Assembly (NCBI GenBank): GCA_021286645.1
Contig: JAJTBZ010000108.1
Location: 1-45,691, forward strand
Direction: 5' to 3'
Origin: Ignavibacteria bacterium
Lineage (GTDB): Bacteria > Bacteroidota > Ignavibacteria > Ignavibacteriales > Ignavibacteriaceae
DNA length: 45,691 nt
The number at the start of each line of letters is the position of its first letter. Position 1 is the first letter of the stretch. The translations under genes were made by a program, and so were the position numbers. This document shows positions 11,003 through 16,696 of the stretch, piece by piece. The notes under the pieces are model-generated. The model searched no databases. It was not told where the DNA came from and was given only the letters and a program-made list of their open reading frames with translations.

Positions 11003-12076
11003 TTACCGTAAATATTCCAATAGATTTTCTAAATCCCGATGGAAAAACTGGTCGCGTATTTTAATAAATCCGCCGCCATAAATCGGATCGGGATTTTTTT
11101 CTAATCCGGTAATCAATTCCAGGCTTTCGGGTGTTTTGAACGAATAGAGGTAGAGGAATGAAATATAATTACAACTTCCTTCTACAATTTCCGGTGTTAG
11201 TTTCTTTTTCGCGTTCTCAAAAATCCACGCGTGCATCAGTTCGTGAGCAATAACCGCGGATGTAGTTAATCGGGGCATGCCGGAAAGAACATAAATTGTG
11301 TGTGTGGTAGTCTCCTGCACGGGTTGGCCTGCAATGCTCATAGTATTTTTTTGGGATTCGCAGAAGCCACGTAATCCTTTCGGGTTTAACCGGTTCTTCG
11401 AGATCTTTTGTAATTCCTGTAAACTTACAACTTTGATGGAGACCGATTTTCTGGGTACATGAATACCCATGTCCGAAACAGTTTCTCTAACCAATTCCAG
11501 GCAATCCTGATATTCGGCAATTTTATTAATTACCCGTGGCAGGCATAAATTGCACATAGCCCTGCCGTCATCGTATTTAACGCCGCCATGCGTAATAGAA
11601 TCGCATACCAGTCTGCCGCAGTTGTCACACTCCGGAAACTGGTTTTTATGCATTATATGGAATTTGTAACCCAGCTGGTCGATAAAATACTCGCCATCCA
11701 TCGGTTTGCCGCATACCGCGCATTTCGGTACAATGAAATTGTAATAGCAGTCATTATGATAGTTTTTATCCTTGAATATCAGGTAGGGACCGGCTATTAC
11801 CTGGCCACAGTGATCGCAGACCAGATGGTTCTTTTTGGCAAAACATTCAGGGTGATAATAACCATCGTTATCCTTCGCGTGAGTGCCCGAAATAACTTTG
11901 CCGCAGAACTGACAAAGAAAATGATTGGCGTGGTAATATTTGTCATCCACTTTAATAAATGACCCGGACAGGACTTTTTTACAGACAGCGCATACTTTTT
12001 TTTGCTGAGCAGAGCCAATAACTGATCCCGCCAGTAAAAGTGATACGAATAGTATAATTGAAAAGAATTTATTCAT
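11003..12076 (-). CDS. Secreted LIM-finger / DA1-type zinc metallopeptidase
   Basis: 357 residues. Residues 1-23 are a signal peptide (hydrophobic core, then SAQ). Residues 29-178 hold a series of LIM-like zinc knuckles: C29/C32, H49, C55/C58, H75/C78, C87/C90, H107/C110, C119/C122, C150/C153 and C175/C178. The C-terminal domain has HExxH (H278, E279, H282) in AHELMHAWIF and a downstream Glu (E299) in PEIVEGSC. This matches the HEMMHAWL...EEG arrangement of the plant peptidase DA1, where LIM fingers precede a ubiquitin-regulated gluzincin-like domain. Bacterial DA1-like proteins exist, but their substrates are unknown to me. The signal peptide means it should work in the periplasm or outside. 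The gene start overlaps the upstream membrane-protein gene by 8 nt. Confidence 0.88.
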   Translation of the reverse strand: MNKFFSIILFVSLLLAGSVIGSAQQKKVCAVCKKVLSGSFIKVDDKYYHANHFLCQFCGKVISGTHAKDNDGYYHPECFAKKNHLVCDHCGQVIAGPYLIFKDKNYHNDCYYNFIVPKCAVCGKPMDGEYFIDQLGYKFHIMHKNQFPECDNCGRLVCDSITHGGVKYDDGRAMCNLCLPRVINKIAEYQDCLELVRETVSDMGIHVPRKSVSIKVVSLQELQKISKNRLNPKGLRGFCESQKNTMSIAGQPVQETTTHTIYVLSGMPRLTTSAVIAHELMHAWIFENAKKKLTPEIVEGSCNYISFLYLYSFKTPESLELITGLEKNPDPIYGGGFIKIRDQFFHRDLENLLEYLR

Positions 12077-13274
12077 GGTATTTCGAATTATTTAACGTTT
12101 TGAAATAACTTTTTGCCTTGCCCGGTTTTTTTGAAAAGAGGAAACCGGCAAAAACGACTCCCAACACAAGTTGTACAGCTACTGAAGCGTATGTTTCCAG
12201 CGCGATACGAGAGTTTAACGGCAATTGCACCAGAAATATACTGAAAAGAAAGATATTCATTTCTCTAATAGAAATTCGCTTGTTTTTTAACAACGCGGAA
12301 AGTGCGAAAGCTGCCAGGATAATGTAGCCGGCGAACCCTGCCGCTACCAGACGCTCGTTATCTCCGGCAATAAAAATTTGGATATATGGAATAATTACAA
12401 TCGGCCATACCCTGCCAAACAGATGCCGGATATCCTTCCACGTACAAATTATCAGAAATACTATGGGTCCAAGAGCGCCTAATGTCAACCGGTAAATATT
12501 GAGTGTCGCGAGAATATATCCTGGTAACGTGATGCCGGCGGGAATATGTAAGCTGGAAGTCTTACCCAAAAAGCAATTAATTCGGTATAGCGAATAATCG
12601 TGAAAGAGAGACCAAAAACTATAGGTCGAAACAGGCTGAATGGTAATCCGGAGGAGCAGCCAAACTGCAATAGCGGGGCTGCCGAGCAGTACTGTTTCCC
12701 GCAAAAGGTTTTTTATGCTGCTTTTCCGATAGTTCCATGTAAAATAAAATGGTATGCACATAAGTGCAATTTCCTTGCTTAATACTCCCAGTATCGTGGC
12801 TGCAATAAATAGTGGTTTAGCCTCAACCATGGCGGCATATATGGCAAGGAGGATAAAGAAAAAAGCTACCGGGTCAACAGCGGCGAATTCAATCAGATTA
12901 ATTCTAACAACATATACCATCGAGAGGAACATAATAACCGAAGCTCTGCTAACCGCTTCAGGCATATTATTCAACTGTGTAATATAATACAGCAGGTATG
13001 CACATCCGAACAGGGAAATCAGCGACAGAAAAAAATACGAAATATGATAGTCAGCGGGAATATAATGGATAATAGCCGGTGGAAGCAGTCGCCAGCAGTA
13101 AGGAGCCAGGGTATCCGGGGCGGGAAACCGGGCGGCGGCGCGTAAATAATCAAAATGCTGCCACTCTCCGTGGTACAATTGGTGCCCGGGGAAAAGCAAC
13201 GTTGAGAACAATGCCAGAAAGAACAAACCGGCACTGGTAATTATGAATAACCGGAATCGGGGATTATTTACCAT
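12069..13274 (-). CDS. Polytopic membrane protein, GT-C glycosyltransferase-like
   Basis: 401 residues with about ten hydrophobic helices spread along the length. The first periplasmic loop contains GEWQHFDYLRAAARFP and APYCWRLLPPA, a pattern seen in bacterial proteins related to GT-C polyprenyl-phosphate-sugar transferases. A later loop holds LSKEIALMCIPFYF, where a KE pair between helices is also frequent in that group. I cannot assign a substrate. Its stop overlaps the start of the LIM-DA1 gene by 8 nt, so the two are almost certainly translated from one mRNA. Divergent from the flagellar cluster, with a 381-nt gap. Confidence 0.7.
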   Translation of the reverse strand: MVNNPRFRLFIITSAGLFFLALFSTLLFPGHQLYHGEWQHFDYLRAAARFPAPDTLAPYCWRLLPPAIIHYIPADYHISYFFLSLISLFGCAYLLYYITQLNNMPEAVSRASVIMFLSMVYVVRINLIEFAAVDPVAFFFILLAIYAAMVEAKPLFIAATILGVLSKEIALMCIPFYFTWNYRKSSIKNLLRETVLLGSPAIAVWLLLRITIQPVSTYSFWSLFHDYSLYRINCFLGKTSSLHIPAGITLPGYILATLNIYRLTLGALGPIVFLIICTWKDIRHLFGRVWPIVIIPYIQIFIAGDNERLVAAGFAGYIILAAFALSALLKNKRISIREMNIFLFSIFLVQLPLNSRIALETYASVAVQLVLGVVFAGFLFSKKPGKAKSYFKTLNNSKYHE

Positions 13275-13655: not shown

Positions 13656-14210
13656 ATGGATGAAAAAATTGATTCCAAAGAAATAGGTGAAGGCAGAAAA
13701 GGTGGTATAAACCCGAAGGTGTTTATTATCGGGTTGCCCTTATTTATAGTCCAACTGGTGGTTGTGTATTTTATTACCGGAAACTTTCTGTTAAGCCGCA
13801 TGGAAAAACAATTATTAAGCCAGGCGGATAAGGAAGAGACAGAAAATGTATCGCATGATAAGAAAACCGATAAGAAAAAGAAGAAAAAGGGCGCGGAGGA
13901 AGCAACCGGTAACTTCATTTTTACGGTAGACGATATAATTATTAACCCGGCCGGCACAAATGGCAATAAGCTTATGTTGATTTCGGTTGGTTTTGGCGTT
14001 GAGACAGATCAGGAAGCCAAAGTTCTGAAGGAAAAAGAAGTATTATTAAAAGATATTGTAATTAATACTGTTTCGGGTAAAACCCTGGATGAATTGCGGC
14101 AGACCGGTTATAAAGATACGCTGAAGGCTGAGTTCAGCAAACTAATTTCGGATAAAATACCCGAGGTTGAAATCAGCAATGTAATGTTTAGTAAGTATAT
14201 ATTCCAGTAA
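13656..14210 (+). CDS. fliL: Flagellar basal body-associated protein FliL
   Basis: 184 residues. A single membrane helix lies at about residues 24-46 (VFIIGLPLFIVQLVVVYFIT). A charged, lysine-rich linker (KKTDKKKKKKGAEE) follows, then the FliL domain with VDDIIINPAGTNGNKLMLIS, the typical family opening. FliL surrounds the stator and supports motor torque. It is the first gene after the sigma-54 element, 6 nt before fliM. The lysine-rich linker is low-complexity and may vary among relatives. Confidence 0.88.
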   Translation: MDEKIDSKEIGEGRKGGINPKVFIIGLPLFIVQLVVVYFITGNFLLSRMEKQLLSQADKEETENVSHDKKTDKKKKKKGAEEATGNFIFTVDDIIINPAGTNGNKLMLISVGFGVETDQEAKVLKEKEVLLKDIVINTVSGKTLDELRQTGYKDTLKAEFSKLISDKIPEVEISNVMFSKYIFQ

Positions 14211-14216
14211 ACAGTC

Positions 14217-15194
14217 ATGGCAGAAGTACTATCACAACAAGAGATTGATGCGCTGCTTAATAATATAAAAGGCGGCAGCGACCAGCAGCACGGCGGCAGC
14301 CAGGAACGCGAGGCTGTTCCTTATGATTTCCGCCTGCCGAACCGTATCTCCAAAAATCAGCTGAGAACTTTACGAAATATCCATGAGAACTTCGCCGAGG
14401 GTTTAAGCTCGTTTTTAATGACGAAATTACAGTCTATTATTAATATAAATGTAATTTCGGTTGACCAGATTTACTATTCCGAATACGTCCTTTCGGTTTC
14501 CAACCCCGCGTGCTTGTTCCTGTTTGATGTAAAAGGCAGTGATATTAAGGCAATTTTAGAGTTAAGTACGGAATTGGCCTTTACATTAATCGACAGGCTG
14601 CTTGGCGGTAATGGCAAGGGTACAAAACAGGCAAAAGTTGTTACTCCCATTGAACAAAAAGTTCTGATGGTTTTTGTTGAACGGGTTATGCAGGAGCTGA
14701 AAAAAGCCTGGGGTATTATCGGCCATTTCGATTTTGCACTGGAACGTTTTGAATCAGATATCGATTTCGCCCAGATTACGTCACAGAGCGAAAGCGTGCT
14801 GATTATTTCTTTTGAATTGTTTATTGGCGAGCAGGCTTTCTTAATGAACCTGTGTTTCGCCACCTATGCTTTTGATACAATATTATCGAAACTTTCAACA
14901 CAGAATTTTTCAACGATACGTCCGGTTAAATACGCCGGAACAACCGCTAAGAATATATTATTAACGCACTTACGGAATACCGACCTTAAGGTTGCAGTAG
15001 AATTTGGTAAGGCCGTTATCAGCCTGCGCGAGTTAATGGACCTGAAGCAGGGTGATGTGATTATGATGCGGAAAAAAGTGGGCGAGGAAATGAAAGTTTC
15101 CGTAGAAGAAAAATTGGTATTCTTAGGGCTGCCGGGTGTAATGAATGGCCATAAAGCCGTAAAAATAACCCGCCGGCTCGATGCAGTAGAATAG
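14217..15194 (+). CDS. fliM: Flagellar motor switch protein FliM
   Basis: 325 residues. The N-terminus has the FliM opening LSQQEIDALLNNIKGG, followed by PYDFRLPNRISKNQLRTLRNIHENFA, the start of the middle CheC-like domain. The C-terminal SpoA/surface-presentation domain covers the last 80 residues or so (TDLKVAVEFGKAVISLRELMDLKQGDVI). It forms the C-ring with FliN and FliG; fliN lies 9 nt downstream. The CheY-binding N-terminal peptide (usually LSQxEIDxLL) is intact, so chemotactic switching is plausible. fliG is not in this window. Confidence 0.95.
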   Translation: MAEVLSQQEIDALLNNIKGGSDQQHGGSQEREAVPYDFRLPNRISKNQLRTLRNIHENFAEGLSSFLMTKLQSIININVISVDQIYYSEYVLSVSNPACLFLFDVKGSDIKAILELSTELAFTLIDRLLGGNGKGTKQAKVVTPIEQKVLMVFVERVMQELKKAWGIIGHFDFALERFESDIDFAQITSQSESVLIISFELFIGEQAFLMNLCFATYAFDTILSKLSTQNFSTIRPVKYAGTTAKNILLTHLRNTDLKVAVEFGKAVISLRELMDLKQGDVIMMRKKVGEEMKVSVEEKLVFLGLPGVMNGHKAVKITRRLDAVE

Positions 15195-15203
15195 AAAAAG
15201 AGG

Positions 15204-15608
15204 ATGACAATGAGCGACGATTTAATTAATGACGAAGATCTAAACCAGGGTGACGATATCCCGATGGATGATAATGGCGAGGTGCGCTATAGCGGCGGTA
15301 TGGCCAATTTCCCCTCGTTCGATGAATCAACCAAACGGACTCCGGTTATGGACAATAAACTGGATTACCTGAAAGACCTGCACCTGAATGTATATATTGA
15401 GCTTGGCCGCACCAAGATGCAAATAAAAGATATTTTGGAATTGGAACGCGGGTATGTTATTGAACTGGAAAAACTTGCCAGCGAGCCGGTTGATGTTTTC
15501 GTCAATAACAAAAAAATTGCCGAAGGTGAAGTGGTGGTTATCGATAAACATTTCGGTATCCGTATTACTAACCTTATTGAAGTGCAAGACAGGATTAAGG
15601 GCTTCTAA
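15204..15608 (+). CDS. fliN: Flagellar motor switch protein FliN
   Basis: 134 residues. An acidic, unordered N-terminal tail (DDLINDEDLNQGDDIPMDD) precedes a SpoA domain from about residue 52 (LDYLKDLHLNVYIELGRTKM) to the end. Motifs such as ILELERGYVIELEKLASEPV and VVVIDKHFGIRI are typical. A second ATG two codons in (15210) has better spacing from the GAGG at 15199-15203 and may be the true start. It ends immediately before the fliO ATG. Confidence 0.92.
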   Translation: MTMSDDLINDEDLNQGDDIPMDDNGEVRYSGGMANFPSFDESTKRTPVMDNKLDYLKDLHLNVYIELGRTKMQIKDILELERGYVIELEKLASEPVDVFVNNKKIAEGEVVVIDKHFGIRITNLIEVQDRIKGF

Positions 15609-15938
15609 ATGGGATTTCTGGAAATTTTTAAGGTGATTTTTGTTCTCGGAATGCTGCTGGGACTAATGTACCTGGTTTTATATCTCACCAAGAAATTTTT
15701 GTTTCAGGGCGGCAGGCCAACTTCGTCGGGCGGGCATATGGTTACTGTTCTTTCCACCCAGATGATTATGCCGAAAAAATATATTTCTGTTATTCAAATC
15801 GATGAAACCCAATATATCGTAGGAGTATCCGATAATGGTTTTACTCTGCTCGATAAAATGGCAGCTAACCCGGTTGAAATGCCGGAAGTACCGGAAGATA
15901 CCATTATGAAACGTTTGCGCGGGAGTATTAAATTCTGA
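15609..15938 (+). CDS. fliO: Flagellar biosynthesis protein FliO-like
   Basis: 109 residues. One membrane helix at about residues 7-29 is followed by a small soluble domain with TVLSTQMIMPKKYISVIQID and YIVGVSDNGFTLL, resembling FliO. FliO assists assembly of the FliP pore and is poorly conserved, so the call also rests on its position between fliN and fliP. Its stop overlaps the fliP start by 1 nt. Confidence 0.82.
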   Translation: MGFLEIFKVIFVLGMLLGLMYLVLYLTKKFLFQGGRPTSSGGHMVTVLSTQMIMPKKYISVIQIDETQYIVGVSDNGFTLLDKMAANPVEMPEVPEDTIMKRLRGSIKF

Positions 15939-16696
15939 TGAAGAATGTGTGGTTGTTAATTTTCGTTATTTTGGCACTTGCCGCAGGTTCACAGGTTTTT
16001 GCTCAGGCTAACACGAATATTGTTGTTCCCAAAGTCAGCCTGAATGTTGGCACTGCCAATAACCCGGAAGACGTGTCCGCTACTCTGCAGTTGTTGTTCC
16101 TTATGACAATTTTGTCATTGGCCCCTTCTATTCTGATTATGACAACCTGCTACCTGAGAATAATTATTGTTTTTAACTTTTTACGTAATGCTTTGGGTAC
16201 CATGCAGATGCCGCCAAACCAGCTTTTAGCCGGTATGGCGTTATTTATTACATTTTTTGTAATGGCCCCGACGTGGACCAAGGTGAACAATGAGGCACTT
16301 AAGCCCTATCTGGATAAAAAAATTACCATAGACAGCGCGTATAACAAAGGAATTGAGCCTATCCGTGCTTTCATGTTCCGCCAGGTGCGCGATCAGGATT
16401 TAGAGCTGTTCATCAGTATTTCGAACATGCCCCGCCCCGAGCACCGGACAGATTTACCGACGCATATTCTGATTCCCGCGTACATAATAAGCGAGTTACG
16501 CGCGGCGTTCATCATCGGGTTTTTCTTGTTTATTCCATTCCTCGTGGTGGATATGATCGTTTCAAGTATTCTCATGTCTATGGGTATGATGATGCTTCCC
16601 CCCATGATGGTTTCGCTGCCATTTAAGATTTTATTGTTTGTTTTAGTTGACGGCTGGAACCTGGTTATCGGTTCGGTTGTAAGGAGTATTCAATGA
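15938..16696 (+). CDS. fliP: Flagellar export gate protein FliP
   Basis: 252 residues. A cleavable signal (WLLIFVILALAAGSQVFAQ) precedes four membrane helices. Family motifs are SLAPSILIMTTCYLRIIIV, RNALGTMQMPPNQLLAGMAL, LPTHILIPAYIISELRAAF and IVSSILMSMGMMMLPPMMVS. It makes the core of the export pore with FliQ and FliR, whose genes follow with overlaps of 4 and 1 nt. Length and motif order are normal. Confidence 0.96.
   Translation: MKNVWLLIFVILALAAGSQVFAQANTNIVVPKVSLNVGTANNPEDVSATLQLLFLMTILSLAPSILIMTTCYLRIIIVFNFLRNALGTMQMPPNQLLAGMALFITFFVMAPTWTKVNNEALKPYLDKKITIDSAYNKGIEPIRAFMFRQVRDQDLELFISISNMPRPEHRTDLPTHILIPAYIISELRAAFIIGFFLFIPFLVVDMIVSSILMSMGMMMLPPMMVSLPFKILLFVLVDGWNLVIGSVVRSIQ

Follow-up and report, generated by a model that had tools for sequence, protein, structure and literature searches.

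The window, the whole 45,691-nucleotide stretch of Ignavibacteria DNA analysed here, encodes a 357-residue protein (LIM-DA1) in which LIM-type zinc knuckles precede a DA1-like peptidase domain. Its features, and the ORF immediately upstream, are as follows.

11003–12076, minus strand: LIM-DA1 gene (ATG start, stop included; 357 aa, open frame)
12008–12076, minus strand: predicted signal peptide, residues 1–23 (site after ...VIGSA placed by eye; hydropathy 3.2)
11843–11992, minus strand: N-terminal LIM domain of two zinc knuckles, residues 29–78 (Pfam LIM; PINCH1 fold match)
11747–11818, minus strand: single extra zinc knuckle, residues 87–110 (missing in some relatives)
11543–11722, minus strand: LIM-like unit adjoining the peptidase, residues 119–178 (ligands C119, C122, H140, H143, C150, C153, C175 and C178)
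11006–11530, minus strand: DA1-like gluzincin domain, residues 183–357 (Pfam, AlphaFold and fold matches)
11231–11245, minus strand: HELMH catalytic motif, residues 278–282 (H278, E279 and H282 in 78/78 rows)
11180–11182, minus strand: E299, the expected third zinc ligand (78/78 rows; aligned with the IRAP Glu, E 0.022)
11069–11080, minus strand: YGxG motif, residues 333–336 (Y333 in 78/78 rows, G334 in 77/78)
12069–13274, minus strand: upstream membrane-protein-like (GT-C-like) ORF (8-nt overlap, 12069–12076, with the LIM-DA1 start)

Pfam assigns the protein to DA1-like (57.4 bits against a cut-off of 25, E 1.7e-15, residues 218–314) and to LIM (44.8 bits against 22.9, E 1.5e-11, two stretches). 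Nine further Pfam hits with E up to 1 all lie under their cut-offs, and NCBIfam returns a single chance-level match (E 0.42). At E ≤ 0.001, the LIM-DA1 ORF is the one DA1-like match in its own genome and the one ORF with LIM matches. Together with the predicted export signal, these profile hits confirm the architecture given in a preliminary description of the locus, namely a signal peptide, LIM-like knuckles and a C-terminal HExxH...E domain.

Relatives and predicted export

A first genome scan, with the single LIM-DA1 protein as query, found no relatives; a scan of species genomes with an alignment (A1) found 95, of which the best 80 were kept. These best 80 of 95 come mostly from Ignavibacteriota and Zixiibacteriota, also from Latescibacterota, Marinimicrobia and Calditrichota, with a few rows from Nitrospirota, Spirochaetota, Cyanobacteria and others; single odd taxa may be misbinned, because most records are MAGs. 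Adding the 20 rows of the relatives search gave 100 rows, from which we removed 5 truncated or broken ones (L068, L089, L090, L093 and L100) and 17 duplicates, leaving 78. Duplicated loci common to both searches include L004 (= L034) and L009 (= L022), both from the Ignavibacteriaceae, the family of the window. A core alignment (A2) holds 69 rows, omitting L004, L006, L014, L017, L086, L095, L097, L098 and L099.

All 69 core fragments (that of the window and those of 68 relatives) match Pfam DA1-like at E ≤ 0.001, so the identity of the protein is not a chance result, and both DA1-like and LIM are found in 20/20 rows. In the relatives search, 25 of 97 genomes (that of the window among them) carry a DA1-like match, as do 17 of 395 genomes taken from the phylum, all 17 in the order to which the window belongs; 14 control genomes gave 0. 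Some bins carry several LIM-DA1 genes: L073 and L080 share one (Latescibacterota CS4-C107), and L077, L091 and L096 another (Cyanobacteria RYN_339), with and without a signal peptide.

The LIM-DA1 protein has a hydropathy peak of 3.2 within its first 45 residues and no second hydrophobic stretch. Residues 1–23 are read as a Sec-type signal peptide by eye and by hydropathy, an uncleaved anchor being possible. An export-like hydrophobic N terminus precedes the first CxxC in 68/78 rows, a count favoured by our choice of start codons, which were set by distance to the first CxxC in L002–L020 but partly by hydrophobicity in L021–L100. Within the clade of the window, a starred set of 31 rows in a quick tree (18/75 inner branches starred), the figure is 31/31. 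A stricter test (hydrophobic N terminus, no later stretch) is passed by 67/78 family rows versus 154/551 flanking ORFs, a contrast somewhat flattered by the same choice of starts; under a looser hydrophobicity test, 231/551 flanking ORFs pass too.

Six rows look cytosolic, beginning no more than 6 residues from the first CxxC (L046, L072, L077, L085, L092 and L097), and four are ambiguous (L053, L070, L088 and L098, the last masked at its N terminus). L046 and L072 are Nitrospirota, one of them from a Candidatus Magnetocorallium bin, and begin at the first CxxC itself. Overall, the sequences indicate that LIM-DA1 is probably exported.

Zinc knuckles and the peptidase core

The preliminary description had counted "four or five" knuckles; assigning ligands by eye from the sequence and alignment, we count five of LIM type (C29/C32/H49/H52, C55/C58/H75/C78, C87/C90/H107/C110, C119/C122/H140/H143 and C150/C153/C175/C178). 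The last two form the LIM-like unit; in 77/78 rows, each of its eight ligand positions holds C, H or D (C119, C122, C150, C175 and C178 in 78; H143 and C153 in 77). H140 is H in 68 rows, C in 9 and Y in 1 (59, 8 and 1, respectively, among the 68 exported rows), and H107 is H in 58 of the exported rows, D in 5 and C in 2. Such Cys/His/Asp swaps at ligand columns are what metal sites would show, and fit zinc sites and not disulphides, although in an oxidising envelope the cysteines could instead form disulphides.

The LIM part (residues 25–115) superimposes on PINCH1 LIM4-5 with a VIA-align Z of 10.3 (3.4 Å over 91 residues). A Foldseek search with the whole model at E ≤ 0.001 finds 19 structures, matching LIM only, and a PDB sequence search up to E 1 gives 25 matches, all LIM proteins (paxillin LIM4, 5.2e-6). 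Paxillin and PINCH, which share the LIM fold, are eukaryotic cytoplasmic adaptors with no peptidase.

In the peptidase domain, H278, E279, H282, E299, G300 and Y333 are invariant in all 78 non-duplicate rows. The spacing from HELMH to the Glu is 16 residues in 70/78 rows, the window included, 15 in 7 and 17 in 1. C302 is less constrained (65 C, 13 A). The DA1-type site proposed earlier is expected to work as a zinc peptidase; invariance, a weak profile alignment to the aminopeptidase IRAP and a fold match indirectly support H278, H282 and E299 meeting in one zinc site. Y333 is a candidate transition-state tyrosine.

AlphaFold models the whole protein with a pTM of 0.74 and pLDDT of 90.9 (alignment of 20 rows, signal peptide included) and the LIM-like unit plus peptidase with a pTM of 0.92 and pLDDT of 96.4 (69 rows). 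The difference is only suggestive of a single rigid core bearing a mobile LIM arm, since alignment depths differ (20 versus 69 rows) and the whole model carries the signal peptide, both of which blur the pTM comparison. Helices 269–288 and 295–311 of the model bear HELMH and E299.

Structural comparison with VIA-align matches the peptidase to IRAP (Z 10.3, 2.9 Å, 144 residues) and the core to ERAP2 (Z 10.2, 2.7 Å, 144 residues). A best Z of 7–8 is typical without a clear match, and the peptidase fold, at Z 8–10, stands only somewhat above this. Foldseek gave zero matches for the core model at E ≤ 0.001. In a weak match (E 0.022), the A2 profile sets HELMH and the Glu of its EG against the corresponding HELAH and EG of IRAP, an M1 aminopeptidase. 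The VIA-align scores and this alignment point to a gluzincin (clan MA) fold. The fold and the HELxH...EG pattern are shared with M1 aminopeptidases (ERAP1/2 and IRAP) and other gluzincins; IRAP differs in having 18 residues between HELAH and the Glu, against 16 here, and in lacking a LIM unit. PDB sequence and profile searches found no solved DA1 structure.

Residue 236 (window 11369–11371), directly before G237, is R in 13/31 and K in 10/31 rows of the clade of the window. We take this position to be a possible match to R358 of plant DA1. In the plant enzyme, changing R358 to K weakens activity (PMC5322733).

Comparison with plant DA1 and a proposed mechanism

Plant DA1 limits organ and seed size.

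Like LIM-DA1, plant DA1/DAR proteins carry a DA1-like domain (PF12315), with a HEMMH-X15-EE site whose second Glu has the HExxH-X16-E spacing of the window protein, and place LIM and LIM-like units N-terminal to the peptidase, as described in PMC5322733. The window protein differs in its predicted signal peptide, its extra single knuckle, the variable number of fingers in its family and the lack of UIMs. It matches positions 41–135 of the 213 in the DA1-like profile; in the genomes of three relatives, the C-terminal part (about 163–211) is matched as well. No UIM appears among the Pfam matches up to E 1, and only the signal peptide lies before the LIM start at residue 29. UIMs are missing from some plant DA1-like proteins too (PMC8173226), so their absence alone does not set LIM-DA1 apart from the whole plant family. 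A search of its own genome for E2/ubiquitin families gave 0 matches, as did the controls. Since there is no room for UIMs after the signal peptide and the protein is probably exported, ubiquitin-type control is unlikely, and the earlier suggestion of a mode of regulation other than that of the ubiquitin-activated plant enzyme is likely to hold.

We propose that LIM-DA1 is an exported zinc endopeptidase of the DA1-like gluzincin family, with a LIM arm that docks proteins to be cleaved onto a core made of the LIM-like unit and the gluzincin domain. To this reading, drawn from sequence, models and homology, we give a probability of about 0.55. After Sec export, the knuckles would hold zinc. The LIM-like unit would pack rigidly on the peptidase and help form or gate its cleft, and the more mobile N-terminal LIM fingers would dock substrate or partner proteins and offer them to the core for limited cleavage. 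Hydrolysis would use zinc held by H278, H282 and E299, with E279 as general base and possibly Y333. Once exported, the enzyme would be beyond the reach of ubiquitin, and control would fall to substrate docking, zinc supply or the redox state of the fingers.

The assignment of the LIM-like unit to the enzyme core, and of substrate docking to the LIM fingers, is made by homology with plant DA1, in which the LIM-like mutation C274Y abolishes peptidase activity (PMC5322733) and the substrate WUS interacts with the LIM region in yeast two-hybrid assays (PMC11143343). Because C274Y blocks ubiquitylation as well (PMC5322733), the mutant may be inactive without any role of the LIM-like unit in shaping the cleft, and we lowered our estimate from 0.6 for this reason.

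The fingers might instead act as sensors of zinc or oxidation, with zinc loss opening or collapsing the LIM-like unit and so switching the peptidase. The many Cys/His ligands of an exported protein (7–22 Cys per exported row past residue 20) and the near-constant C, H or D ligands of the LIM-like unit (77/78 rows) would suit such gating, but the unit is kept in cytosolic-looking relatives too, and no zinc-uptake or redox gene was noticed by eye among the recurrent neighbours; we consider this version unlikely. A second alternative makes the LIM modules purely structural, stabilising the fold of a housekeeping degradative peptidase. Module number varies among the rows (CxxC counts run from 3 to 8), as does the number of fingers in front, and 38 of 67 loci with ORFs on both sides have no same-strand neighbour within 100 nt of LIM-DA1; the substrate binding by the plant LIM region (PMC11143343) argues against it, and it seems an unlikely account as well.

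In a cysteine-switch zymogen, C239 of an RGxC motif would cap the active-site zinc and be released by a trigger; the general idea of such a switch has been put forward for plant DA1 (PMC5322733). C239 is C in 24/31 rows of the clade of the window but in just 24/78 overall (T in 35, A in 10, others in 9). With this variability, the switch cannot be the mechanism of the family and is rejected as such; it could operate within the clade, which we judge quite improbable.

Gene neighbourhood bears on one further proposal, that LIM-DA1 and the GT-C-like membrane protein form an operon and act together in assembling glycans or surface polymers. The two ORFs do overlap by 8 nt, and a same-family genome (L109) has a membrane-like ORF of ~404 aa a few ORFs downstream of LIM-DA1, but this ORF is unrelated to the GT-C-like one (best BLASTP E 5.2). 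The GT-C-like ORF has no Pfam match, its homologues occur in just 4 of the 96 other relatives and never close to LIM-DA1, and it matches none of 75 related loci. Three of those four genomes also carry a LIM-DA1 gene, either on a different contig or at a distance of about 3.2 Mb. We therefore reject the ORF as a conserved partner and hold the operon proposal to be very improbable: the translational coupling offered as a clue to function is a real overlap without linkage in these relatives, and with the neighbour not conserved, the argument for a cell-surface role built on it fails.

The lack of a constant neighbour also counts against the substrate-docking reading. LIM-DA1 itself aside, none of the 17 window ORFs tested has a match in more than one of the 75 related loci, neighbours differ within the same genus and the same family, and comparison of the related loci found no partner gene recurring across the whole LIM-DA1 family. 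A MATE-family cluster is present in 9/75 loci and lies no more than 153 nt upstream of LIM-DA1 in 8. In these eight (L031, L037, L038, L039, L041, L047, L051 and L094), the transporter gene is divergent, 74–153 nt upstream, and in five (L031, L037, L038, L039 and L041) a Yip1-like gene follows LIM-DA1 convergently; both Pfam names rest on the L031 copies. A convergent M64 (IgA-type) peptidase gene, assigned by Pfam from the L051 copy, lies beside LIM-DA1 in L051 (8432–9805, 14 nt away) and L047 (9141–10613, 193 nt). The MATE and M64 neighbours look like local synteny. Within the window, flagellar genes occupy 13656–16696 on the plus strand (FliL and FliM by Pfam, then FliN/FliO/FliP-like by eye).

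Precedent and meaning

The pairing of LIM and DA1 in bacteria is already known: Dong 2017 (PMC5322733) cites Burroughs, Iyer and Aravind 2011 for proteins of Roseiflexus that have four CxxC/H pairs and a high similarity to plant DA1. By the description in the citing paper, these are bacterial LIM-DA1 homologues like the one studied here; no Roseiflexus record is among our best 80 of 95 relatives. What sets the present variant apart, as judged from sequence, is its predicted export, the varying number of its fingers and its occurrence in many phyla. Among titles and abstract openings, a coverage outside which the text of Burroughs 2011 falls, we found no description of an exported bacterial LIM-DA1 protein.

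It is conceivable, though doubtful, that LIM-DA1 arose in bacteria as an envelope protease, its string of fingers capturing folded extracytoplasmic proteins for the LIM-like/gluzincin core, and that plants later adopted an unexported version and added UIMs, ubiquitin replacing control by docking or zinc. If so, the bacterial enzyme would show the ubiquitin-free ground state of DA1. LIM fingers are known as cytoplasmic adaptors, and the protein also raises the question of how they retain zinc and function outside the cytoplasm. A compact, UIM-free, exported homologue would allow the LIM-like/peptidase core to be studied without ubiquitin.
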